Both the position numbers and the translations under genes were made by a program. From the IMG/VR virus record IMGVR_UViG_3300021957_000283, positions 1 to 24,971 of that record: 24,971 nucleotides of DNA. One strand, 5' to 3'. The DNA is from a virus. The notes below the pieces were generated by a model. It was not told where the DNA came from, ran no database searches, and saw only the letters and a list, made by a program, of their open reading frames with translations. Below, piece by piece: positions 1 through 24,068 of this stretch; the first letter of the stretch is position 1; every line of letters starts with the position of its first letter.

Positions 1-1
1 A

Positions 2-157
2 GACATTGAATTTATTATTTATCACCAACTAGGGGAAAATCCTGATAAAGGTATACTTGATATAACAATAGACAGTATAACCACAGATGAAGGATTAGCT
101 GCTCCTTACGGAATAGCAGAGGTCAATCTAAACACAGCCTATAGGCTAGAAAATTAA
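2..157 (+). CDS. C-terminal end of a preceding virion gene, possibly tail terminator (partial)
   Basis: An open frame runs from base 2 to the TAA at 155-157, giving the last 51 residues of a protein that starts before the window. The visible tail includes ...LDITIDSITTDEGLA... and ends in NTAYRLEN. In lambda-type modules the gene just before the major tail protein is usually the tail terminator or completion protein, which caps the tail tube and joins it to the head. The position fits that role, but no diagnostic motif is visible, so the function is an inference from order. The next gene starts 11 bases after the stop. Confidence 0.55.
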   Translation, partial: DIEFIIYHQLGENPDKGILDITIDSITTDEGLAAPYGIAEVNLNTAYRLEN

Positions 158-168
158 GGAGAAATAAC

Positions 169-1467
169 ATGGCATCCTCTCTCAATTTACAGAGAAATTC
201 TGAAGTGTTCTTTTCAACAGTTGATATTAATAGTGGTTCAGTTGCAGTAGCAATGACCCCGGCTAACACCTGGAAACTAGAAGTATTAGCTGGTTTTGCT
301 GCTACCTCTACATCAGCTACTCAAGACATCACTTCTCTTGAATCCGGTCTAAGCCCTGATCGGTCACAACAAAGATTTAATACGGCAATCAACCCTGTTG
401 ATTGGAATATTCAGGTATATATGCGCCCAACAGGTGTAGAAACTACTGGTGCTGCTAACGGTACTACTGCAAAAACTAATGAATCAGGTAATACAAAACC
501 TCTTGCAGACTGGTATATGTGGCAAGCTCTTACTTCAAGTACTTTAGCTGCTGCAAAATCACAAGTAGCTGCTACACGAGTAGCAGAGCAATCTATTTGG
601 CAAACTGGTGGTACACTAAAAACTAATACTATCACAGCTGGAACTCGTATTCATGCTTCAACATCTAATTGGGCTGTTGCTCCAGAATACTTTATGTACT
701 TTAAACTTGATAATGTTATTTATCAGGTAGATAAAGCTACAGTAAACTCAGCTTCTGTTGATGCAGGCATTGAAGATATTGCTGCTGTTACTTGGAGTGG
801 TTTTGGTACTACCATGAAAGAACTAGTAGGAGCACCAAGAGATATTGCTGTTGCAACCTTTGGCGGAATTAAAAATTCTGGTGGTACTGCTGTTGTTGGC
901 AACTCTAACGCACATGCTCTGAGCGCTGCATCTTCTTATCACCCATTCAATACTATGAATGTTGCTGGCACAGTGACCACTAACGCATTTATTAAGAATC
1001 GTTTGAGTGCCATTGAGTTTCACCATAAAGCAACTGCATCAGCTTCTGATGAAAAGTTTACTTTCCCAGTAACTTCTATGAATATTGAGTATACCAACAA
1101 TATTACATATCTCACTCCAGAACAAATCTCTGCCCTTAACGAGCCAATCGGTCAGTTCTCAGGAACTAGATCTGTAACCGGCTCTACTACTATGTATCTT
1201 CGTTCAGGAGATTTAGAATCTGCAGGATTCTTACGTAATATTAGTGAAGATACACGTACTAACTCAGCCCAAACATCTAATGCTAATGTTATCATTGGTG
1301 GAGCTACAGCTCCATATGTTGCTTTCCAAATGAATGCAGCACAGTTTAGTTTTCCAGCAATTCAAACTGAAGATGTTATCTCTATGACTGTTGACTTTAT
1401 GGCACAAGAACTTGATGCTAATAAAGGCGATGGTGGAGAAGTTGAAATTGTAGCTATAAAAGCTTAA
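169..1467 (+). CDS. Probable major tail tube protein (lambda gpV position)
   Basis: A 432-residue protein with ATG at 169, preceded by a strong AAGGAG ribosome binding site at 156-161. It is Ala/Thr/Ser/Asn-rich with no signal peptide or membrane segment, as expected for a self-assembling virion protein. Its place directly before a frameshifted chaperone pair and the tape measure gene is the classic position of the tail tube subunit that polymerises around the tape measure. At 432 residues it is much longer than lambda gpV (about 246), so an added surface domain is possible. Its codons are more mixed (CGT/CGC/CGG arginine, more C-ending codons) than in the later tail genes, which fits high expression. 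I do not recognise a specific family, so the call rests on context. Confidence 0.7.
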   Translation: MASSLNLQRNSEVFFSTVDINSGSVAVAMTPANTWKLEVLAGFAATSTSATQDITSLESGLSPDRSQQRFNTAINPVDWNIQVYMRPTGVETTGAANGTTAKTNESGNTKPLADWYMWQALTSSTLAAAKSQVAATRVAEQSIWQTGGTLKTNTITAGTRIHASTSNWAVAPEYFMYFKLDNVIYQVDKATVNSASVDAGIEDIAAVTWSGFGTTMKELVGAPRDIAVATFGGIKNSGGTAVVGNSNAHALSAASSYHPFNTMNVAGTVTTNAFIKNRLSAIEFHHKATASASDEKFTFPVTSMNIEYTNNITYLTPEQISALNEPIGQFSGTRSVTGSTTMYLRSGDLESAGFLRNISEDTRTNSAQTSNANVIIGGATAPYVAFQMNAAQFSFPAIQTEDVISMTVDFMAQELDANKGDGGEVEIVAIKA

Positions 1468-1486
1468 TTAAAAATTAATGTGTTTC

Positions 1487-1583
1487 TGAGGGGGAACACC
1501 ACATTATTAACCAGAAGAACACCCACTACTTGCAAGTCCAGGTTCCCCCTCACCTAAGACAAGCAGATATGTAGTGGGTGTTC
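1487..1583 (+). ncRNA. Interleaved inverted repeats: predicted intercistronic RNA pseudoknot
   Basis: The 142-base gap between the tail tube gene and the chaperone gene is not coding. It contains two perfect complementary pairs in the order A-B-A'-B'. Arm A (1487-1497, TGAGGGGGAAC) pairs with A' (1542-1552, GTTCCCCCTCA) over 11 bp. Arm B (1517-1529, GAACACCCACTAC) pairs with B' (1571-1583, GTAGTGGGTGTTC) over 13 bp. This order is the topology of an H-type pseudoknot, with connecting loops of about 19, 12 and 18 bases. A 10-base palindrome, ACTTGCAAGT, lies at 1528-1537. The element ends 13 bases before the GAGGGG ribosome binding site at 1597-1602 of the chaperone gene. A cis-regulatory role is inferred; the complementarity is seen directly. 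I do not recognise it as a known riboswitch. Confidence 0.6.
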
Positions 1584-1609
1584 GTTTATCATCCTAGAGG
1601 GGAAAAACT

Positions 1610-2041
1610 ATGAGTAAAATTAAAGGCTTAATTGCTAAAGAAACCGCAACTTGGGTTCAGTTTCCAGAAATGGAAGAGTTTGAAATTCATCTTCGTTATC
1701 TAACTCGTGAAGATCTAATGAAGATTCGTAACAAGGCTCTTACATATAAGTTTAATAAACGCACTCGTCAACGGGAAGAAGAAGTTGACAACGAAAAGTT
1801 TCTTGAAGCATATGCTGAAAAAGCAATTGCAGGCTGGAAAGGGCTTAAGGTAAAACATTTACCGGTTCTTTTACCTGTTGATATTTCAACAATGGACGCC
1901 GCAGAAGAAGTAGAGTATTCTATGGAAGATGCAATTGAACTTTTAAAAAATTCTACAATTTTTGATCAGTTTATTACAGATACCATGAATGACTTTGAAC
2001 AATTTTCAGTTAAGAAGAAAGAAACAAACTCAAAAAACTAA
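1610..2041 (+). CDS. Tail assembly chaperone, short form (lambda gpG-like)
   Basis: A 143-residue protein with ATG at 1610, preceded by AGAGGGG at 1596-1602. The sequence has the look of siphophage tail assembly chaperones: a WVQFPxMEEFEIHLRYLTRED start, a charged helical middle, IAGWKGL near residue 75, and a C-terminal helix ending in DFEQF. Length is close to lambda gpG (about 140). Such chaperones coat the tape measure protein and recruit tube subunits during tail assembly, and are absent from the mature virion. The last codons, TCA AAA AAC TAA, form a slippery site, so a fraction of ribosomes should continue into the overlapping frame to give a longer product. The upstream intergenic RNA element may regulate its translation. 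Confidence 0.85.
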   Translation: MSKIKGLIAKETATWVQFPEMEEFEIHLRYLTREDLMKIRNKALTYKFNKRTRQREEEVDNEKFLEAYAEKAIAGWKGLKVKHLPVLLPVDISTMDAAEEVEYSMEDAIELLKNSTIFDQFITDTMNDFEQFSVKKKETNSKN

Positions 2042-2069
2042 CTGACTACCTCCAAAGTTCTTTTGGGGG
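2032..2069 (+). promoter_or_regulatory. Programmed -1 ribosomal frameshift signal
   Basis: The heptamer A AAA AAC at 2032-2038 is in the correct register for -1 slippage (TCA AAA AAC TAA in the zero frame), with the stop immediately after it. Ten bases downstream, 2049-2056 (CCTCCAAA) pairs with 2062-2069 (TTTGGGGG) in an 8-bp stem with one G-U pair and a 5-base loop, at the usual distance for a stimulatory hairpin. After slippage the reading frame continues at CTA (2038) without a stop to 2397. This is the typical G/GT mechanism of long-tailed phages. Confidence 0.85.
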
Positions 2070-2397
2070 TGGGGGTTTAACAGCAGATCAATATATATTG
2101 ATGTGCGAACAGATGGGTTGGGAACCAAAAGAGGAAGATTTACCTCAAGACGGCTCCAACCTATCTTTAGAGTGTCAACAAGCTCTAACAGTTTTAAATG
2201 CTCTTCCTGATATATTCGAAGGTATGAATGGTACATGGATGGGAAAAGACTATAGCGGTCTAAGTGCTATTATGGATATTTATGAAATTGATGATAGACG
2301 TTCAGTATTTGAATTGTTAAAAGAAGCTGAGTCTATGTTAGGAAAATACTACGCACAAGAAGCTAAGCAACAAAGCAGAAGCTTAAAAAAGGGGTAA
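2038..2397 (+). CDS. Frameshift extension of tail assembly chaperone (lambda T-like part of GT)
   Basis: This is the -1 frame continuation of the chaperone gene, not a separate gene. From 2038 it reads LTDYLQSSFGGGGLTADQYILMCEQMGWEP and onward to the TAA at 2395-2397, adding about 119 residues for a fusion of about 262. This compares well with lambda gpGT (279). An internal ATG at 2101 exists but has no good ribosome binding site, and the open frame upstream of it is continuous back to the slippery site, so translation by frameshift is the better reading. The known role of the T part is to bind tail tube subunits while the G part binds the tape measure. The tape measure gene starts 3 bases after the stop. 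Confidence 0.8.
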   Translation, partial: LTDYLQSSFGGGGLTADQYILMCEQMGWEPKEEDLPQDGSNLSLECQQALTVLNALPDIFEGMNGTWMGKDYSGLSAIMDIYEIDDRRSVFELLKEAESMLGKYYAQEAKQQSRSLKKG

Positions 2398-2400
2398 TCG

Positions 2401-5400
2401 TTGGCAACTATTAGAAATACTATTGATACACAGTTTACAAGCAGAGGTGCGAGGCGAGTTAGAGAAGAAACTGAGTCTATTGGTAGAGCTCAAACTCGCC
2501 TTGGACAAGCGTCTGCAGGTGCTGGTCGTTCCTTTTCTGCTCAATCTACTGGGATGGGTGGATTAGTTGGTGTATATGCAGCTGCCGCTGCAAATGTATT
2601 TGCTATTAGTGCTGCTTTTGAAGCATTAAATGCTGCCGCAAAATTTCAAACAATTATTAGAGGTACTGAGCAACTTGCCAACGCTGTTGGTACAAGTGCT
2701 GAAACTGTTATAAATAGTATGAAAGATATAACTAATGGCCAGCTATCTATAGCAGAAGCAGCAAAAGCTGCTAACATGGCACTTTCAGCAGGTTTTAATG
2801 TAAATCAAATTCAAGATTTTACTATGGTAGCTACCAAAGCAGCTAAAACATTAGGTAGAGATTTAACCGATTCAATCCAACGTGTGACGAGAGGTATTAT
2901 TAAACTTGAACCAGAACTTTTAGATGAATTAGGTATTTTTACGCGTATTGAACCTGCTGTTAATGCTTACGCACTACAATTAGGTAAATCTGCTTCACAA
3001 TTAACTACATTTGAAAAAAGACAAGCTTTTGCTGTTCAAGTTACAAAAGATGGTACTAATGCGTTTAAAGATGTTACCTTAGCAGCAGACTCTTCCCAAG
3101 CTTCTTTTGAAAAATTAGTAGCTACTTTTAGTGATCTGGCTATTCAAGGAGCAGGTTTGATTGCTAATGCATTAGCTCCTTTAGCTGATTTTTTAAATGA
3201 TAGCTTAGGTAATCAATTAATTCTTTTAGGTGCTGTAGGAACTTTAGTTTTTGGTAAGTTAGCTACAGCTGTCGGCGGTTTTGTAGCTGGGGGAGTAGCT
3301 TCTCTTAGTATAGGTTTAAATACACTTGCTCTTGAAATGGCAGCTGTTGGTACTAGTGCTACTGCTATGGCTACTCGAACTGCGGCAGCTTCTGCTGCCT
3401 TTACAGGCGCAGGCGCTTTAGCAGGATCCAGTAGAGGTATGGGTTCTCAACTTAAAAAAGATTTAGCTAAAGGACCATTAAGTTTAGAGCAAGCACAAGA
3501 GTATGATCCTAAAATAAAAAAAGCTCTTGAAGCAGAGAGAAAAGAAAGAATGAAGTTACACCGTATAAGAAGATCGGGTGTAGCACTAAGTGTACAACAG
3601 AATAGACAAATGCAGATGTCTCTCCAGAGAAGTAGAGCATTAGGCATAAGCATGAGAGTAGTTAGAGATCAAATACATTTAGCGGGTACTGGTGCTAATA
3701 TGCTAACAAGAGGTTTAGCAAAAGCTTCTGCTGCTGCTGCTGTTTTTGGGACTGTTATGAATTTTGCATTGGCTGCGGTAAATTATATAGTAATCGCACT
3801 GGTCGCAATACAAGCAGGTTTTAAATTCTTTGCAGATATAGATGTTTTTCAAATACTACTTGATGCCTATAAAGAAATGACCAAAGAATCTAGACAACAC
3901 GCTGCAGGATTAAAAGAAGTTAATAGCTTGATAGATGTTCAAGGTAGTAAATTAACAGATGTAGTAGCAATCATGGATGCTGCAAGAATAGATCCAGAAA
4001 ATAGAACTACTGAAGGCCTAAGAGACTCTATGGAGACTCAAGTAGAGGCTATACAAGATTATCAAAATCAAATACTGCAAATAGAAAAAGTAATTGCTCG
4101 TAGCGCGCAACTTAATCAAAGTTTCTTGCCAGCCAATGCTGGTGGCAGCCCTGGTATTGCACAACTTGCATTAGGTGGTTTTGGATCTCAGCAAGACTTT
4201 GCAGATGCAGTAATAGAGGTAGCAGAGTTAAAAGACAAAATAATGGATGCACAAGCTGCTATTAATATACTTGGAGGTGCTTTTAGTAATGTTCAAGATA
4301 TAGATAACTTTACTAAATTTATAGGTAAGGCAAAAGAAGAAATTGAAGGATTAACTACTGCTTTATCTAAAGCATTTGCAAAAGGTAGACTTGATGTTAG
4401 TGAGTTATTGCCTACCCAAATTAATAGTGGGAATCAAATTAATAGTGGAACTATGAAAAAACAAGTACTCGAAACAAGAGGAATTAAAAGAAGAGACTTT
4501 GCCGATTCAACACAGAACATAACAAGTCCTTTTTTTGCTGGATCCAGAACTGGTGCTCTCGAGAACGTCGAAAATATGCAGTTTGGTGAACAAAATAATA
4601 AGTTAACTCTATTTGTAGATGCACAAGATAAATATACTAAAGGTAGTGCAGCTTTTATTAAAGCTACAGATGATACTTCTGATGCATATAATAAAATAGA
4701 AGAATTATTTGCAGGTTTAGCTACTGGTCTGATTAGTGATGAAAATGCTGGTAAACTACTTGCTACAATTAGAGCTCAAATGGAAGCAGCACAGGCAACA
4801 ATAGAAGCAGCTAAGACAGATGGCATATTTGAAGGTAGGCAAATAAGCCAAGCTGAAAAGTATTTGGCGACAATTGAAGAAGGTTTAGCATTTATTAATC
4901 AGGAACTGAGTAGAGGTACTGAAAGATTTATAGCACAAGAAAAGCTATTTCTTGCATTAAATAAACAATTTTCTAATGTTAATAAATTTATTGACGAGGC
5001 AGGCAATACAGGAGCAATAAATGCTGCAACTGGAGAAATTGCTACCAGTCAAAAACAACAATTAAAATTTCAACGAGAAAACTTTCTAATATTGTCTAAA
5101 AGACTTGAAGTGCTGAAAAAATATACTCCTGAAGAGATAAAACAGAGAGGTTTACTGGCTGAAAAGCAAGGTTTAGAGGCAAATCTATTACTAATAGCTA
5201 AAGAATCATTTGCTGAGTCTGTTAAACTACTACTTAATAGTAAAAAACAGATAGATGCGCAGACAACAAAAACTAAGCAGATGCAAGATCAACTTGATAT
5301 ATTAAAAATGCAAAATGCAGAAGCAGTAAGACTATCTGGTATACGTGCGCGTGATGCTTCCCAACAACTTGGACTACAAGTTGGTAATGCTGCTAAGGGA

Positions 5401-8864: not shown

Positions 8865-10438
8865 TGAGTGCTAGAAACTACGATGTAATTTTAACTGTTG
8901 CCGATGCTGGACCTTTTGTACCTGGTAACTCTATTGTAGGATCTGCCAGTGGGACCGTAGGTTTTATAGCTAATGTTAATGTAACTACTGATCAATTAAA
9001 AATTAAATTAAATAATGTACTGCAAGAATTTCATACTAATGAAACTATACAATCTAAATCAGCTGTGATAAGTAAAAATGCTAATGGAGCATTAAATACT
9101 CTTTCTGTACCGTTTCAGTCAAATGTATGGTCTAGTGAACAAATTACAGGTAGTACTACTATTTCTTCACAGGCTCCTAGCCCATTTATAGCAGCAAAAA
9201 ATGCATTTACACAAAATCCTATAGTAAGGTTATATGAAATATATTATCCAGGAGAGTGGTTTCCTACCACTCCTGAAGGTAATCCTACTAATGATGGAGA
9301 GGGTAGGGCTTGGCCCACTAATTTTCCTATAAAATTTGCAGATGTAGCAGGAGATTTAGTTTCTGATTTACAATATAATGTAACTTATGATGGAGATTCA
9401 TATATACCTTTTCCTGTAGATATATCTAGTATTAGTCAAGCAACTGATGGCCAAATTAATGAACTTACTTTAACAGTATTTAATGTAGACAATATTATAT
9501 CAGCAATAGTTGAAGATCCATATATTGTAGGTAATAATATTAGTAATTCTTGTGTAGCTAATGTTAATGGTATACCTTGTCACGGTATTGATCCTAGAAC
9601 TATTAACTTTACTCCTGCACAAGTAGGTAATGCTGGAGAAATTGCTTTTGATACCTTAACTAGAGCAAGAGCTAATAATTTACTTTATAGTGCTACTATA
9701 GAAGGAACCTATGGACAATCTAATGCCTCCTATACTAAAGATCAGACAGAACTTACTAATGGAACTTGGCAAGACTTAAAAACTGATTCTAGAGATCTAT
9801 CAGGGGCTGTAGTTAATATTAAAACTACTTTTGCTAATTTTTTAGATGTATGGCCCGAACATAGTTCCATTAAATATCTTACAGGAAATGTTATAGAAGT
9901 TTATAATGCTATGCCTTATAGAGTAGGAGACTCTGTAAAGTCCATAAAAGGATCTACTAATGCCTCTGTAGTAAGTATAGAAGAAAATAGATTTTTATTC
10001 TTATCAAATCCTTTAGAGTCAAATACTGCTGTAGGAGATGAAGTTTATATTATTAATGATGATGTAGATACAGAATCTTATATAGAAGATAGATTTAAAA
10101 TAGATCAATTAGAAGAATTAGGACCACAAGTAGCATCCTTTAATTTAGTTACTTGGTTGCAATATTTTAAACAAGTAACTCCCAGACGTAAATATTATAA
10201 AAATACCTGTCAATGGCAATACAAAGGTGAAGAGTGTCAATATCCTGGTCCTGCAGGTGGTACTATACCTGGTACTACTCTTACTGCTAATAATAATCCT
10301 ATTGGTGTTGATAACACAACTGCATCTGGACCTGAAGGTGATATATGTGGTAAGAATATATTAGCTTGTACTATTAGAAATAATTCTATACACTTTGGAG
10401 GCTTCCCTGCAACAGGACGTACAATTCCCAAACAATAA
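8864..10438 (+). CDS. Tail-tip protein, lambda gpL-like, with four-Cys Fe-S site
   Basis: A 524-residue protein with ATG at 8864 inside TAATG. The C-terminal part carries C449-x8-C458 (TCQWQYKGEECQYPG) and C495-x6-C502 (CGKNILACTIR), followed by HFGGFPATGR. This matches lambda gpL, whose tail-tip domain binds an iron-sulfur cluster through four cysteines and ends in a GGFP-like motif. The central part (VRLYEIYYPGEWFP, DSYIPFPVDISSIS, and ELTLTVFNVDN) also fits minor tail protein L. Two regions are extra relative to lambda gpL (232 residues): an N-terminal module (about 15-65, VPGNSIVGSASGTVGFI...FHTNETI) and a similar one near 345-400 (YRVGDSVKSIKGSTNASVVSI). Modules of this look are common in marine phage virion proteins. 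The gene end overlaps the radical SAM gene. Confidence 0.85.
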   Translation: MSARNYDVILTVADAGPFVPGNSIVGSASGTVGFIANVNVTTDQLKIKLNNVLQEFHTNETIQSKSAVISKNANGALNTLSVPFQSNVWSSEQITGSTTISSQAPSPFIAAKNAFTQNPIVRLYEIYYPGEWFPTTPEGNPTNDGEGRAWPTNFPIKFADVAGDLVSDLQYNVTYDGDSYIPFPVDISSISQATDGQINELTLTVFNVDNIISAIVEDPYIVGNNISNSCVANVNGIPCHGIDPRTINFTPAQVGNAGEIAFDTLTRARANNLLYSATIEGTYGQSNASYTKDQTELTNGTWQDLKTDSRDLSGAVVNIKTTFANFLDVWPEHSSIKYLTGNVIEVYNAMPYRVGDSVKSIKGSTNASVVSIEENRFLFLSNPLESNTAVGDEVYIINDDVDTESYIEDRFKIDQLEELGPQVASFNLVTWLQYFKQVTPRRKYYKNTCQWQYKGEECQYPGPAGGTIPGTTLTANNNPIGVDNTTASGPEGDICGKNILACTIRNNSIHFGGFPATGRTIPKQ

Positions 10439-11606
10439 AATTAAAGGTTGTATACTTCCTTGGATGCATATTTTTGGAGGATTAACTGGTAATTTTTATT
10501 TATGCTGTCATGCACAATTTCAAACAGATACTACTATAGTAGGAACCTATGATCAATCCTTAGGTGATATATGGAATAGTGCTCAATATAAAAAAACACG
10601 TTTAGATTTTTTGAAAAATAAAATACCTACAGAATGTATAAAAGCATGTTATGATAAAGAAAAACAAGGTAGTGGTAGTAACAGATTACAAGTAAATAAA
10701 CGATTTGCTAAAGATGTATATCTACAATCTCAAACTAATGAAGATGGAAGTTTAGATAATAAACCTACTTATCTAGATATTAGGTTTGGTAATCTGTGTA
10801 ACTTTAAATGTAGAATGTGTGGTCCTGATGCCTCTACTAGTTGGTATAAAGATACTTTAGAAACAGGTTGGTCTAAAACTATGGACTACTATACTGATAA
10901 TGAAAACTTTTGGGCAGATGTTCCACAATTTATTCCTGATCTAGAAGAAGTATATTTTGCAGGGGGTGAACCTTTTATACAAGAAGGTCACTATAAGATG
11001 CTTACATTACTTATAGAATCTGGTTATGCTAAAAATATACACCTAAGTTATAATACAAATTTAAGTTATCATAAATTTAAAAAATATAATCTTCCCGAAC
11101 TATGGGGTAACTTTAAAAAAGTGTCTTTATGGCCTAGTGTAGATGGCTATGGAAGTCGCGTAGAGTATTCTAGGAAGGGATTATCCTGGTCTAAATTTGA
11201 AAAACATGCTATTATGTTTAAAGACAATATAACTACTATAAGTGCAGTTATAAGTATATATAGTATAACATCTATGCCTGATTTAATACTATGGTGTAAA
11301 CGTAATAATTTTTATTTCTACGGTACAACTTTGATAGAGCCTATATATCAAAAAGTTACTTGCCTACCTAAAGAGTCTAAACAAGATGTAATACAACTTT
11401 ATAAAAAATTTACTACAGAGTATAAAGCACTTTTAAGTCTACATGATCTAGAACAAATTAAGAGCTGGCTATCTTTTATGGTTAGTACTGATGATTCTTA
11501 TTTACTACCTGAATTTAAAAAAGAAACTGAAAGACTAGATATACTACGTAAAGAATCCTTTACAGATACCTTTCCGGAGTTTTGCTCATGGTACAAAAAT
11601 ATTTAG
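10395..11606 (+). CDS. Radical SAM protein with N-terminal twitch/SPASM-like Fe-S domain
   Basis: About 400 residues. The radical SAM core has the C-x3-C-x2-C motif (C135, C139, C142 in LCNFKCRMC), which holds the [4Fe-4S] cluster that cleaves S-adenosylmethionine. It is followed by FAGGEPF (190-193, SAM binding) and WPSVDGYGSR (248-255). Before the core is an auxiliary cysteine module: C19 (CILPWMH), C37-C38 (GNFYLCCHA), then C81-x3-C85. This layout is that of 'twitch domain-containing radical SAM' proteins, thought to modify peptides; the substrate here is unknown. Start choice is uncertain. TTG at 10395 has no ribosome binding site. A GGAGG at 10397-10401 sits 5 bases before an in-frame CTG (10407). 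The first ATG (10464) would remove C19. The gene lies between gpL-like and gpK-like genes and overlaps both, so it is part of the tail-tip operon. Confidence 0.88.
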   Translation: MEASLQQDVQFPNNKIKGCILPWMHIFGGLTGNFYLCCHAQFQTDTTIVGTYDQSLGDIWNSAQYKKTRLDFLKNKIPTECIKACYDKEKQGSGSNRLQVNKRFAKDVYLQSQTNEDGSLDNKPTYLDIRFGNLCNFKCRMCGPDASTSWYKDTLETGWSKTMDYYTDNENFWADVPQFIPDLEEVYFAGGEPFIQEGHYKMLTLLIESGYAKNIHLSYNTNLSYHKFKKYNLPELWGNFKKVSLWPSVDGYGSRVEYSRKGLSWSKFEKHAIMFKDNITTISAVISIYSITSMPDLILWCKRNNFYFYGTTLIEPIYQKVTCLPKESKQDVIQLYKKFTTEYKALLSLHDLEQIKSWLSFMVSTDDSYLLPEFKKETERLDILRKESFTDTFPEFCSWYKNI

Positions 11607-11980
11607 GTTTATATCACTCATATGAAGATATAAATTGTATAACACTAATTAAAAATTTCTATTTTTTAGAATTGAATTTACAATTCTCTTTACCAGATTA
11701 CCCTGTTTCTAGACACTGGATTAAACAATTTACTACAACTAGTATAGATAGTTGGGCAGCTCAATGTGCTAAAAAAGTAAGTTTGACAAACGCTAAAGAT
11801 TATGATGTAATAGCATTTAAGTCAGAAAAAACAAATTTAATAATACATTTTGGTATGTACTTAATGCCTTCCAAAATGTTACACATCGAAGAAGGGGGAA
11901 TTTCGCGTGTGGAGACTCTATCAGATTATTGGATAGAAAGTATACATTCGATTTATAGACATGACAGCTTGGTATCATAA
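11588..11980 (+). CDS. NlpC/P60-like cell wall peptidase a (gpK C-terminal domain-like)
   Basis: 130 residues from ATG 11588, which has GGAG at 11576-11579, 8 bases upstream; a TTG at 11582 is less likely. The likely nucleophile is C17 in YEDINCITLIKNFY. A YDVIAF strand follows, then the His motif IIHFGMYL (H87), SKMLHIEEGGISRVE (H99) and an ending DYWIESIHSIYRH. This pattern (NC...D-hydrophobic...HxGxYL...LHxxxGxxSR...W...xRH) is close to the NlpC/P60 half of lambda tail protein K, a tail-tip peptidase thought to cut peptidoglycan peptides or process tip proteins. Catalytic assignments are from motif reading only. It overlaps the radical SAM gene by 19 bases and the next gene by 20 bases, so translation is probably coupled. 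Confidence 0.6.
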   Translation: MVQKYLGLYHSYEDINCITLIKNFYFLELNLQFSLPDYPVSRHWIKQFTTTSIDSWAAQCAKKVSLTNAKDYDVIAFKSEKTNLIIHFGMYLMPSKMLHIEEGGISRVETLSDYWIESIHSIYRHDSLVS

Positions 11981-12386
11981 ATACAAAGATTTTCCGTATT
12001 TACATTTAGGTAATAATACAGAAACAGGGATTGACTGCTTTAATCTCTGTAAATATGTATATCTACATGAATTAAATATAGACATTCCTTACACTACAGA
12101 TCATTTTTGTAAAATAGTAGACGAAGATTGGTATAGTAAAACTCAAGAAAGACTCTTTGAAATAAATGCAAATGAAAAGACTGGGTGGAGAAGAGTTAGA
12201 GAACCTAAACCTTATGATATAATAACTATGAGTCTAGGATCTACTAATGTTACAAATCATTGTGCATTGTATGTTGATAGGAATAAAATCTTACAAACTA
12301 TGATTAAGCATAAAAGCTGGGTCTCTATTTATGGAAATTACTATAAACAATATACTACGGGGGTGTATAGATGGAAAGATTTATAA
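11961..12386 (+). CDS. NlpC/P60-like cell wall peptidase b
   Basis: 141 residues with ATG at 11961 inside the end of the preceding gene. There is no clear ribosome binding site, so coupling is expected. The segment YLHLGNNTETGIDCFNLCKY puts a likely nucleophile at C26. PYDIITMSLG precedes a His motif TNHCALYVDRNKILQT (H100), and H117 could be a third catalytic residue. These fit the NlpC/P60 fold, and the N-terminal LGNNTETGIDC context is typical of phage tail peptidases. It is therefore a second peptidase of the same class, directly after the first. The sequences have diverged strongly outside the motifs, so this is an old duplication or two separate acquisitions. It overlaps the JAB gene by 16 bases. 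Confidence 0.65.
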   Translation: MTAWYHKYKDFPYLHLGNNTETGIDCFNLCKYVYLHELNIDIPYTTDHFCKIVDEDWYSKTQERLFEINANEKTGWRRVREPKPYDIITMSLGSTNVTNHCALYVDRNKILQTMIKHKSWVSIYGNYYKQYTTGVYRWKDL

Positions 12387-12742
12387 AATTAAAAGAAGAT
12401 ATGAATGCGCATTCAATGTTAGAGTACCCTAAAGAGTGCGTAGGTATCATAACTAAAGACTTTATTTATATTCCTTGTACAAACGTATCTCCCATGCCTA
12501 AACAAACTTTTATATTAGACCCTGCAGATTTAGTTAGAAATGACGAGAATATATGGGGCATATTTCATTCACATCCTGGAGACGAAAATCCAATACCCAG
12601 TAAAGAAGATAAAGTAAGTGCAGCTTTTCAGGAATATAAATTTTTAGTAGGATTTAATAATAAATTTTATATATACTGGCTAGACCACGATATAGACGCA
12701 CTCATATTTGATGAGTTTAAGGAAGAAAATCTTGTTAATTAA
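12371..12742 (+). CDS. JAB/MPN (JAMM) metallopeptidase, gpK N-terminal domain-like
   Basis: 123 residues from ATG 12371, preceded by GGGGG at 12359-12363. The zinc site of the JAMM family is readable: E22 in PKECVGII, then IFHSHPGDENPIPSKEDK with H66, H68, S77 and D80. The spacing between HSH and S is 8 residues, one more than the usual 7, which is a small oddity. In lambda gpK this domain is fused in front of an NlpC/P60 domain. Here it is a separate gene placed after two NlpC/P60-like genes. It probably acts with them at the tail tip, either in cell wall degradation or in maturation of the tip. It overlaps the gpI-like gene by about 32 bases. Confidence 0.85.
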   Translation: MERFIKLKEDMNAHSMLEYPKECVGIITKDFIYIPCTNVSPMPKQTFILDPADLVRNDENIWGIFHSHPGDENPIPSKEDKVSAAFQEYKFLVGFNNKFYIYWLDHDIDALIFDEFKEENLVN

Positions 12743-21299: not shown

Positions 21300-22997
21300 A
21301 TGGCGCTTACGCGTGTAACATCTACAGTTTTAGAGTCTAATGCAGTTTCTGCAGAAAAAATGGCTAATGGTTCTATAGTAACAAGACTATATGGTATAAA
21401 GTCTATTGAGGCTAAGCATTTAGCCGCTAGTGCAAATGCTGCTAGTTTAACTACTAACGTAAATTTATTACAAAGTAATATTAATGTTGTTCATGCTAAT
21501 GTGGTAGCAGCACAAGCTAATATAATATCTGCCAATACTGCTGTATTTAATGCAGCTAAATCTAATGATTTTGTTACATTTACTGCTGCAGAATCACGTA
21601 TTAATGCTACTACTAATAATGTTGATACAGTTTCAGGTAATGTAACAATAGTTGAGAATAGAAGAGTAAATAATATTGCTGGTGCAGTATCCACTATAAC
21701 AACAGCAGATTTAACAGCTTCTAGAGCACTTGTATCTAGTGGTAGTGGTAAAGTAGCTATTTCAGATGTTACTAGTACAGAACTTGGTTACGTAGATGGC
21801 GTTACTAGTGCTATTCAAACTCAACTTAACGCAGGTGTTACAAATACTAATACTGTTCATGCTAATGTAGTAGCAGCAGAAGCTAATATTGCAGGAGTAC
21901 TTGCTGGTACTAAAAACTTTACTGGTGGAGTTACTATGGGTGATGATTTAATCATTCAAGGTAATTTAACAGTACTTGGTGATAGTGTTACAGCTAATAC
22001 TATTAATGCAGTTATACAAGATAGATTCTTATTCTTAGCTAATTCTGTATCAGGTGCTTCTGCTGCTGATGTAGGTATTCTTATGAATAGAGGTAACGAT
22101 GGTAATGCTGCTATCTACTATGATGAATCTACTTTTTCGTTTACTATGGCAGAGACAAGAGATCCTGACTCTAATGTTATTATTAGTCCTACAGGTTTAG
22201 CTAATTTAGTAGTAGGTACATTAAAATATAATGGAGCAGATTTAAATACTGCTATTACTGATAATAGATCTGGTGCTGTATCTACTGTTTATAAAGATAA
22301 TCTTACAGCTTCCCGTGCTTTAGCTTCTGATGGTAGTGGTAAGATTGCTATTTCAGATGTTACTAGTACAGAACTTGGTTATCTAGATGGCGTTACTAGT
22401 GCAATACAAACTCAGTTAACTGCTGGAGTAAGTAATGCTGCCGCTGTTGTTACTGAGGCCGTAGGTATAGAAGCTAGAAGAGCGGCAAATATAGCAGGTG
22501 CTGTATCTACTATTACTACTGGGAATCTTACTGCCTCAAGAGCTTTAGTATCCGATGGTAGCGGTAAAGTAGCTGCTTTAGCATCTGTTACCTCTACTGA
22601 ATTAGCTTTTTTAGATGCTACCAGTTCTATTCAGACACAACTAGATACTAAAGGAAGTACTGCAGGATTTCAAGCTAATGACTATATAACATTTCAAAGA
22701 CTAAATGCTAATATTAACATAGTCTCTTCTAATGTAGCATTAGGACTAAAACAACTTATAAATGTTGCAGCAAGTGCTACAGGAGAAGGAACAGGAAGTA
22801 ATAACTTTTTTGTAGCTACTCCTCCAGGAGCCAATCCTGTGGCTATTAATAATGTTGTAGTAACTCTTAATGGAATTACACAGACTAAAACAACTGATTA
22901 TATATATACTCCTGCATCTGGTAAAGTTACTTTTACTGACGCAGCTATTCCGTCAGGTTTGACTGTGCAAATTGTAACTCTTAATCCGCCAGCCTAA
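21300..22997 (+). CDS. Tail fibre / virion structural protein with ELGYLDGVTSAIQTQL repeats
   Basis: 565 residues with ATG at 21300 and a strong AAGGAG at 21288-21293. The N terminus (LTRVTSTVLESNAVSAEKMANGSI) is of a common marine phage fibre type. Three copies of a 55-residue unit occur at about 124-180, 321-378 and 395-455. Each has GAVSTI...LTASRAL, GSGKVA and STELGYLDGVTSAIQTQL-like parts. Between them (about 215-300) is a segment with LIIQGNLTVLGDSVTANTI, DRFLFLAN and GILMNRGNDG, seen in T4-like and cyanophage structural proteins. A C-terminal beta module (VVVTLNGITQTKTTDYIYTP, then VTFTDAAIPSGLTVQIV) resembles those at the N terminus of the distal tail protein at 7248. It probably forms a trimeric fibre or whisker. 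Its stop shares a base with the radical SAM start (TAATG), so the two are translated together. Confidence 0.83.
   Translation: MALTRVTSTVLESNAVSAEKMANGSIVTRLYGIKSIEAKHLAASANAASLTTNVNLLQSNINVVHANVVAAQANIISANTAVFNAAKSNDFVTFTAAESRINATTNNVDTVSGNVTIVENRRVNNIAGAVSTITTADLTASRALVSSGSGKVAISDVTSTELGYVDGVTSAIQTQLNAGVTNTNTVHANVVAAEANIAGVLAGTKNFTGGVTMGDDLIIQGNLTVLGDSVTANTINAVIQDRFLFLANSVSGASAADVGILMNRGNDGNAAIYYDESTFSFTMAETRDPDSNVIISPTGLANLVVGTLKYNGADLNTAITDNRSGAVSTVYKDNLTASRALASDGSGKIAISDVTSTELGYLDGVTSAIQTQLTAGVSNAAAVVTEAVGIEARRAANIAGAVSTITTGNLTASRALVSDGSGKVAALASVTSTELAFLDATSSIQTQLDTKGSTAGFQANDYITFQRLNANINIVSSNVALGLKQLINVAASATGEGTGSNNFFVATPPGANPVAINNVVVTLNGITQTKTTDYIYTPASGKVTFTDAAIPSGLTVQIVTLNPPA
21756..22381 (+). 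repeat. Pair of exact 35-base repeats inside the fibre gene
   Basis: Bases 21756-21790 and 22347-22381 are identical over 35 bases, and the match resumes after a few differences (TAGATGGCGTTACTAGTGC). They encode AISDVTSTELGY, the core of the fibre repeat unit. A third protein-level copy near 22590 has diverged in DNA. Such repeats can drive in-frame gain or loss of fibre units by recombination. Confidence 0.85.
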
Positions 22998-23986
22998 TGA
23001 AAAAATATAGACAACTAACAACAGAACTAACTTTCAGATGTAATGCTAAGTGTCCTGCTTGTCATAGAGTTAAACCTCTTCGTGTTAACTTAAATGATAA
23101 GAAATATACTATATCATTAAGTAAGTTTAAAGAACTATTTTATCCTGAGTTACTTAGAAACTTAGACTGGTTAGTTATTAATGGTAATTTTGGTGATTCT
23201 GTAATGAATAAACAGTTTCGTGAAATTATAACATACGTTAAAGAACATGATACAAGAATATTAATTCATACTAATGGAGGTATTCATGGTCATGATTATT
23301 GGACAGATGTAGGTAATATACTAACAAAACGTGATATAATTAATTTTGATATGGATGGTTTATCAGACACTCATTCAAAATACCGTATTAATACTAAATT
23401 TGAAGATGTATTTAGTAATGCTTGCTCGGTTATTAAAGCAGGTAATGCACAAGTGCATTGGAAATATATTGTTTTTGAACATAATAAACATCAAGTAGAA
23501 GAAGCTAGGAAAATGGCTGTAGATCATAGTTTTCATACTTTTTCTACTGTTAAAACTTCAAGAGATGTATTCGCACCTAAAACAGGTAATTTTATACATT
23601 CTAAAAAGAATAAAGAAAATATGGACAATGCTGAACGCGTTATTAAGTGTGTTTGGGATAATTGGGGTAAATGGTATATCTCTCCAGAAGGCCTAGTGTT
23701 TAGATGTTGTTGGACTGGTGGGCATTACTATGATGAACAACAATCTCGTTTTTATTACCCACCTAAATTCGAAAATTTATTTAATGGGCTTCATGTACCT
23801 TTAGAAAAGATTTTAAGTTATGAGTACTGGGCTAAGCTACAAAACTACTTAAAAGGCTATGATAGATCATTTAAACTTTGTAAGTCTCAGTGCGGTAAGA
23901 TAGTATCTTCTATTGAGAAAACAGAAGAAAACTTAGCAACAGGGCAACGAACATTTTTTGACTCAGATAATCAAATGGGAAACTAG
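22997..23986 (+). CDS. Radical SAM protein with C-terminal SPASM/twitch-like Fe-S domain
   Basis: 329 residues with ATG at 22997 in a TAATG junction with the fibre gene. The radical SAM motif is C15-x3-C19-x2-C22 (FRCNAKCPACHR). The usual GGE motif is replaced by NGNFGD (62-67). LIHTNGG (89-95) and FDMDGLSDTH (117-126) fit later strands of the SAM barrel. The C terminus has an auxiliary cluster motif: C218, then YISPEGLVFRCC (C237-C238), then C295-x3-C299. SPASM/twitch domains of this kind are known in enzymes that modify peptides or proteins. The substrate is unknown. Because it is translationally coupled to the fibre gene and lies inside the tail region, the fibre or another virion protein is a reasonable candidate. 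It is distinct in sequence from the first radical SAM protein of this window. Confidence 0.87.
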   Translation: MKKYRQLTTELTFRCNAKCPACHRVKPLRVNLNDKKYTISLSKFKELFYPELLRNLDWLVINGNFGDSVMNKQFREIITYVKEHDTRILIHTNGGIHGHDYWTDVGNILTKRDIINFDMDGLSDTHSKYRINTKFEDVFSNACSVIKAGNAQVHWKYIVFEHNKHQVEEARKMAVDHSFHTFSTVKTSRDVFAPKTGNFIHSKKNKENMDNAERVIKCVWDNWGKWYISPEGLVFRCCWTGGHYYDEQQSRFYYPPKFENLFNGLHVPLEKILSYEYWAKLQNYLKGYDRSFKLCKSQCGKIVSSIEKTEENLATGQRTFFDSDNQMGN

Positions 23987-24007
23987 TTTAATACTAAGAT
24001 TAAAAAT

Positions 24008-24036
24008 TTGCCATAACCATAATTTTAAAGTATTCT
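24008..24036 (+). promoter_or_regulatory. Possible sigma70-like promoter
   Basis: In the 82-base gap after the second radical SAM gene, TTGCCA (24008-24013) and TATTCT (24031-24036) are spaced by 17 bases. They match 5 of 6 and 4 of 6 bases of the -35 and -10 consensus. They lie about 33 bases before the next start codon. In an A+T-rich genome such matches arise by chance, so support is weak. Confidence 0.3.
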
Positions 24037-24068
24037 ACATGTAAGAATTAATTTGTAAAGGATAAGCT

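Follow-up and report, generated by a model that had tools for sequence, protein, structure and literature searches.

We analyzed a stretch of 24,971 nucleotides, called the window below, that comprises positions 1 to 24,971 of the IMG/VR virus record IMGVR_UViG_3300021957_000283. Its tail module carries a gene for the tail tube protein followed by a tail assembly chaperone gene. The 142 nt between the two ORFs (1468-1609) form the longest gap in the window according to the ORF list; the runner-up measures 82 nt (23987-24068). Among the best 40 of 902 matching records, the tube protein is 26-28% identical to T5-like major tail proteins. The locus contains the following features.

169-1467, + strand: gene for the tail tube (major tail) protein, 5' of the element; matches phrog_3575 (major tail protein) with E 2.5e-43
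1480-1486, + strand: 5' strand of the P1 hairpin, GTGTTTC; a covarying stem
1487-1497, + strand: arm A, which coevolves with A'; TGAGGG at 1487-1492 is the P1 hexaloop and the kiss core
1493-1499, + strand: 3' strand of the P1 hairpin, GGAACAC, overlapping the 3' part of A
1517-1529, + strand: 5' strand of helix B (covariation)
1530-1533, + strand: 5' strand of stem C, TTGC (one compensatory event)
1540-1543, + strand: 5' strand of stem D, AGGT; kiss formation competes with its last pair
1542-1552, + strand: arm A', the apical loop of the B hairpin; CCCTCA at 1547-1552 can pair with 1487-1492
1552-1555, + strand: 3' strand of stem D, ACCT (structure comparison)
1563-1566, + strand: 3' strand of stem C, GCAG (structure comparison)
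1571-1583, + strand: 3' strand of helix B, arm B' (covariation)
1584-1590, + strand: weak U-rich stretch after B', GTTTATC; the U-tract is longer in most of clade II
1597-1602, + strand: chaperone Shine-Dalgarno (SD) sequence GAGGGG, which repeats letters of A
1610-2041, + strand: gene for the tail assembly chaperone, 3' of the element; matches phrog_313 (tail assembly chaperone) with E 9.9e-14

A sequence-only reading of this DNA had described perfect, interleaved inverted repeats of 11 and 13 bp in the gap, and both were recovered. A (1487-1497) and A' (1542-1552) are 100% complementary over 11 nt, as are B (1517-1529) and B' (1571-1583) over 13 nt, and the arms cross in the order A-B-A'-B'. 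Crossing perfect inverted repeats of at least 7, 8, 9, 10 and 11 bp arose in 178, 15, 3, 0 and 0, respectively, of 5000 dinucleotide-preserving shuffles of the gap. Folded without a pseudoknot, positions 1465-1615 reach -45.3 kcal/mol (z -3.68), and none of 200 shuffles folded as well. The P1 hairpin around A, the inner stems C and D, and the repetition of A letters in the chaperone SD (GAGGGG) were absent from that reading.

The neighboring genes show features of their own. A canonical -1 slippery heptamer, A_AAA_AAC (2032-2038), lies directly before the chaperone stop, with GGGGGTGGGGG just downstream of it, and the -1 frame is open across the chaperone end (2014-2397). The heptamer and open frame together predict a programmed frameshift of the gpG/gpGT type. 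The chaperone ends in KN in all 11 sequences of alignment A1, and that of locus L226 continues past KN. The tape-measure ORF has a predicted start, TTG at 2401, behind AAAAGGGG in the ORF list. Further along the tail module is a SPASM/radical-SAM-like gene (10395-11606; SPASM above the cut-off, Radical_SAM slightly below), followed by two tandem NlpC/P60 genes (11582-11980 and 11961-12386) and a JAB-domain gene (12371-12742). A second gene with a CxxxCxxC-like N-terminus lies at 22997-23986 and has no Pfam match.

Homologous gaps and compensatory change

We assembled homologous loci from a tube-protein scan (71 loci) and from five alignment scans of viral contigs, which supplied the best 80 of 280, 239, 280, 242 and 286 relatives, respectively. 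Four isolate loci, one MAG contig, the window and the window's own copy (L072) were also in the sample. The tube gene was detected in 429 of the 438 records, the chaperone in 409, and both in 400. Some of the 38 records without both genes detected are visibly cut by contig ends (e.g. L018, L019 and L023). Counts are given as distinct gaps because many locus identifiers are overlapping stretches of one contig. The sample holds at least 112 distinct tube-chaperone gaps of 120-159 nt, drawn from 396 records. The remaining four of the 400 are the T5-like isolates (L073-L076), where the site spans 882-909 nt and another gene takes the place of the RNA: a minor tail protein gene in three and one annotated as phage tail fibers in the fourth. 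Model searches of these four genomes, run without a positive control, gave no match. Extra coding in the gap was considered and rejected: 103 of the 112 distinct gaps contain no stop-free forward frame (nine have one), and gap length varies.

The A' core CCCTC is present in all 112 distinct gaps, and its partner GAGGG stands at A in 111. The exception, L284, has GGGGG at A and retains a G-U pair. Homologues that lack one helix, named by the sequence-only reading as evidence that would count against its proposal, were looked for and not found. A distant tube homologue with 46% identity (L067) has a different ORF directly behind the tube gene and no such gap. This homologue and another, L042, lie near the two ends of one 33.8-kb contig, on which the element and chaperone are seen only behind the L042 copy.

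We chose 65 representatives at <93% identity, 43 from clade I (including the window; alignment A6) and 22 from clade II/freshwater phages (alignment A7). GAGGG starts 8-24 nt 3' of the tube stop in the 111 distinct gaps that have it, and B' ends 18-36 nt 5' of the chaperone AUG in the 65 representatives. In A6, which was aligned by sequence only, the 33 pairs of the structure are paired in 96.5% of cells; partners slid out of place as a control pair in 45-50%. Double-sided change occurs in 113 cells compared with 33.9 in shuffles (0/500 as high). Helix B changes on both sides at 13 of its 14 pairs in clade I. RNAalifold applied to A7 recovers helix B alone, with 12 pairs, nine of which show double-sided change. 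Eleven to 14 contiguous pairs (G-U counted) form helix B in 63 of the 65 representatives, and the long hairpin is computed at -25 to -36 kcal/mol.

The smaller stems are also kept. P1 is paired in 86.3% of cells in its own register, with 25 double-sided cells, compared with 42.7% one column off. Its stem around A averages 6.6 bp versus 4.0 bp with shuffled flanks in the 65 representatives; it reaches at least 4 bp in 60 of them and just 3 bp in the other five. The D stem averages 5.7 versus 3.0. Conservation is weak for the "mid" pairs that lie between C and D, with 14/41 and 8/43 cells unpaired at two of the three pairs. Parsimony on the A6 tree, with ties broken arbitrarily, counts about 31 compensatory events in B, nine in P1, three in D, one in C and two in the kiss. 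In our own R-scape-like, phylogeny-aware test, four of 36 pairs reached significance, of which three belong to B and the fourth to P1. When every column pair was tested in the same way, only two passed, and both lie within the structure. The compensatory change that the sequence-only reading asked of homologues is thus present for B and P1, and as coevolution of A with A' (below); the kiss taken alone falls short in the phylogeny-aware test. We conclude from these comparisons that a folded RNA is kept at the junction of the tube gene and the next tail gene in an uncultured phage group from marine and fresh waters.

Pairing between the two loops

In all 65 representatives, the minimum free energy fold of the long hairpin leaves at least four of the five A' core letters (CCCTC) unpaired. 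Because a P1 stem surrounds A and the A' core is unpaired, the invariant TGAGGG and CCCTCA lie in two loops. Sequence and fold comparison thus places both partners in the loops of their own hairpins, the arrangement that defines a kissing loop. The kiss core UGAGGG:CCCUCA does not vary across the 43 clade I representatives, so covariation is uninformative for the kiss in that clade.

We therefore compared each A with its own A'. Complementarity across the 65 representatives was 9.09 for own partners and 7.97 for reassigned ones, a value that none of 2000 shuffles reached, these shuffles ignoring relatedness. The excess (Watson-Crick pairs) was also unmatched in 2000 shuffles for 111 distinct gaps, for clade I alone and for clade II alone; L284 was dropped from the 111-gap test as it is without GAGGG. 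With G-U pairs allowed, coevolution in clade II was not significant (477/2000). The phylogeny-aware test did not find the kiss alone significant (edge pair p 0.0063, E 0.23). L372 carries GAGGGA with TCCCTC; as we read the alignment rows, this resembles a third change in the kiss that a misplaced gap obscures.

The chaperone SD served as an internal control, and it bears on a switch in which A' would hide the SD unless A takes A'. The SD region contains GAGGGG in 43 of 65 representatives and GAGGG in 56, both complementary to A'; A' matches A and the SD equally well in five representatives and the SD better in four. The SD:A' complementarity is no better than reshuffled (6.57 versus 6.76, with 1979/2000 as high, in the 56 of 65 representatives with GAGGG in the SD; nine were dropped), whereas that of A:A' is. 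Compared with SD:A', A:A' gives the longer match in 56 of 65 representatives and the more stable duplex in 60 of 65; the SDs of L325 and L372 match A' by just 3 and 4 nt. An anti-SD that coevolves with the SD, the mark of a switch that sequesters the ribosome binding site, is not found among the 56 usable representatives, and hiding of the SD by A' is contradicted. We consider this switch very unlikely and rejected it.

On this evidence the RNA is an intramolecular kissing-loop pseudoknot, in which the P1 loop (A) is predicted to pair with the apical loop of the B/C/D hairpin (A'). Its two crossing helices are kept by compensatory change, with the invariant kiss core as the weak point. The H-type pseudoknot proposed from the sequence alone therefore needs revision: the crossing helices stand, through coevolution and compensatory change, but a bare H-type fold does not, since A sits in its own hairpin P1 and A' is an apical loop. 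In the window, pairing of A with A' over all 11 bp is in competition with inner P1 pairs and one D pair; the longer and the core pairing alike cross helix B.

Related folds are known from other RNAs. The TAR/TAR* and ColE1 RNA I/II kissing complexes also form between complementary hairpin loops of six to seven bases; unlike them, the two loops of the window lie in cis within one mRNA. The T4 gene 32 leader, an H-type pseudoknot, likewise places crossing helices in a phage mRNA. In contrast to that leader, the element lies between two cistrons, presents A in a separate hairpin and caps A' with stems C and D.

Strand, copy number and distribution

G-U combinations occupy 98 cells of the paired columns, compared with 28 for A-C and 48 for other mismatches. 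The excess of G-U over A-C suggests that the sense RNA is selected. With a model built from clade I, 11 of 12 large phage records each gave a single strong match (E 8.4e-5 or better). This model found no match in the freshwater record L305 or the SAR86 MAG, though both carry the element. All 10 records searched with the clade II/freshwater model yielded a single strong match each, including two from clade I that its alignment does not contain (E 4e-7 and 5e-7). This second model also finds the L305 contig and the SAR86 MAG; its alignment includes L226 and L050, the latter being the gap of the L305 contig. Strong matches fall on the tube-chaperone gap when their positions are compared with the locus ranges, and all further matches have E >0.1; the second-best match within the window has E 0.21. 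The predicted fold is thus a conserved feature of the sense strand, present as a single strong copy, at the tube-chaperone gap, in each phage record searched.

Chance or an alignment artefact would be compatible with a kiss core that is invariant in clade I and so shows no covariation there. We find it scarcely credible, given the crossing repeats (0/5000 shuffles), the reciprocal matches of models across clades and the coevolution of A with A' with the SD as internal control.

The proposal that this is no named RNA family agrees with our searches. Comparing window positions 1300-1800 with Rfam 15 yielded nothing up to E 5. The two matches up to E 1 across 11 diverse loci (0.37 and 0.6) scored far short of the gathering thresholds, and neither lay in a gap. 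Comparison with the Rfam models of self-cleaving ribozymes gave no match within the gaps tested. A phage collection had no DNA match to the element, and its records that match the tube proteins are all <60% identical (902, 903 and 902 records). Among the titles and abstract beginnings listed from open-access PMC, none concerns an RNA of this sort next to a tail tube gene. The RNA is without a name so far, and no RNA at this site is described in the literature searched. The element marks a widely sampled, uncultured group of T5-like phages. In a scan of bacterial genomes, the element module appeared on one contig only, in a SAR86 MAG: L226 is a 5-kb contig binned in that MAG, with the same module and element. 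This binning is a weak lead to SAR86 as host.

Candidate roles at the tube-chaperone boundary

The sequence-only reading had set a simple terminator aside, and rightly so. The crossing helices co-occur in homologues. A terminator score is positive in none of the 43 clade I representatives (window, -39.6). By this score, neither the window nor clade I shows the GC-rich hairpin with an immediate U-tract that defines an intrinsic terminator. The score is positive in 14 of the 22 clade II/freshwater representatives. T makes up 64% of the 8 nt after B' in the 65 representatives, compared with 36-37% in two other linkers; TTTT occurs within these 8 nt in 39 of 65, and fewer than four T in 10 of 65. 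L120 and L130 have no U-tract, yet they retain B, P1 and the A:A' match. A simple terminator scan limited to loops of 3-8 did not report B, as expected from that limit. A leaky intrinsic terminator between tube and chaperone as the universal job of the element would account for the T-rich stretch and the positive scores in clade II; the scores reject it for clade I, L120 and L130 keep the structure without a U-tract, and we consider it unlikely. On the + strand of window positions 1-3762, a search for sigma-70-like promoters found no site, so the tube and chaperone genes may share a transcript.

Tube protein is needed in far more copies than the chaperone or the tape measure. Our preferred reading, held tentatively at a probability of roughly 0.4, is that the element may be a boundary element that favors the tube message over the chaperone and tape-measure message through decay resistance, plus a terminator-like ending in clade II. 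The element would be an intercistronic structured RNA of the late tail mRNA and would act in cis. P1, with its loop UGAGGG, would form just 3' of the tube stop and the long B/C/D hairpin before the chaperone AUG, and their loops would pair. The hairpins locked by this kiss would give the tube message a decay-resistant 3' structure. Many tube proteins and few chaperone and tape-measure proteins would result. In clade II, a fraction of the transcripts probably stops at the hairpin with its U-tract. For the window's clade, nuclease processing or another kind of stop would have to generate the 3' end of the tube message.

Several observations favor a boundary role. The element occupies the gap after the tube gene, whose product is in far greater demand than the chaperone or tape measure, the letters after B' are T-rich, terminator scores are positive in 14 of 22 clade II/freshwater representatives, a shared transcript is possible, and T7 offers a precedent. 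PMC5592923 describes a phage-RNAP terminator, T-phi, with some readthrough, directly after the T7 capsid gene 10. Both cases place an RNA signal behind an abundant structural gene with partial downstream expression, which for the window is a deduction. Unlike T-phi, the window has two kissing hairpins, and its clade lacks a terminator-like tail. The L17 downstream element is a structured RNA in a bacterial 3' UTR, according to PMC2864571. It too is a conserved structured RNA after a gene; its neighboring genes differ, and the gaps we tested match no Rfam family. Against a boundary role, the U-tract is not universal and none of the clade I representatives passes the terminator score. Since a hairpin without a kiss would already suffice to shield a 3' end, this role leaves unexplained why the kiss core is so strongly conserved.

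The short spacer from B' to the AUG (minimum 18 nt) fits a translational role equally well, and control of chaperone translation is the main rival, though we think it somewhat unlikely. Here the kissing fold would be bound by a protein, with tube or chaperone protein as candidates, or remodeled as ribosomes finish translating the tube gene, and would set initiation or coupling. The element does lie between stop and start with short linkers (8-24 and 18-36 nt), and some unpaired letters are invariant in clade I representatives, e.g. A100 and T101 of the gap (window 1567-1568). The proposed fold nevertheless leaves the SD free, the distance from the stop to A varies, and by eye the internal-loop letters of clade I are not retained in clade II.

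Two further roles were considered. A nuclease processing site, such as RNase III acting on the long hairpin, could divide tube from chaperone mRNA, and a long imperfect hairpin between the genes, computed as stable (see above), would suit it. Usual RNase III substrates are longer than the 11-14 contiguous pairs of helix B, and we regard this role as improbable. The element might also be excised or terminated as a small RNA whose loops pair between molecules, giving multimers that act in tail assembly or late-gene timing. The model is the phi29 pRNA, here transferred to tails; we think such a role in these phages highly improbable.

The boundary role remains our preferred reading. Whichever role applies, the element is a conserved, covarying phage RNA, unmatched in Rfam 15, that lies where one gene's product is needed in many copies and that of the following gene in few. 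It gives a concrete sequence with which to approach how long-tailed phages may set the ratio of tube to chaperone outside their coding regions, and its homologues form a natural set of compensatory variants.
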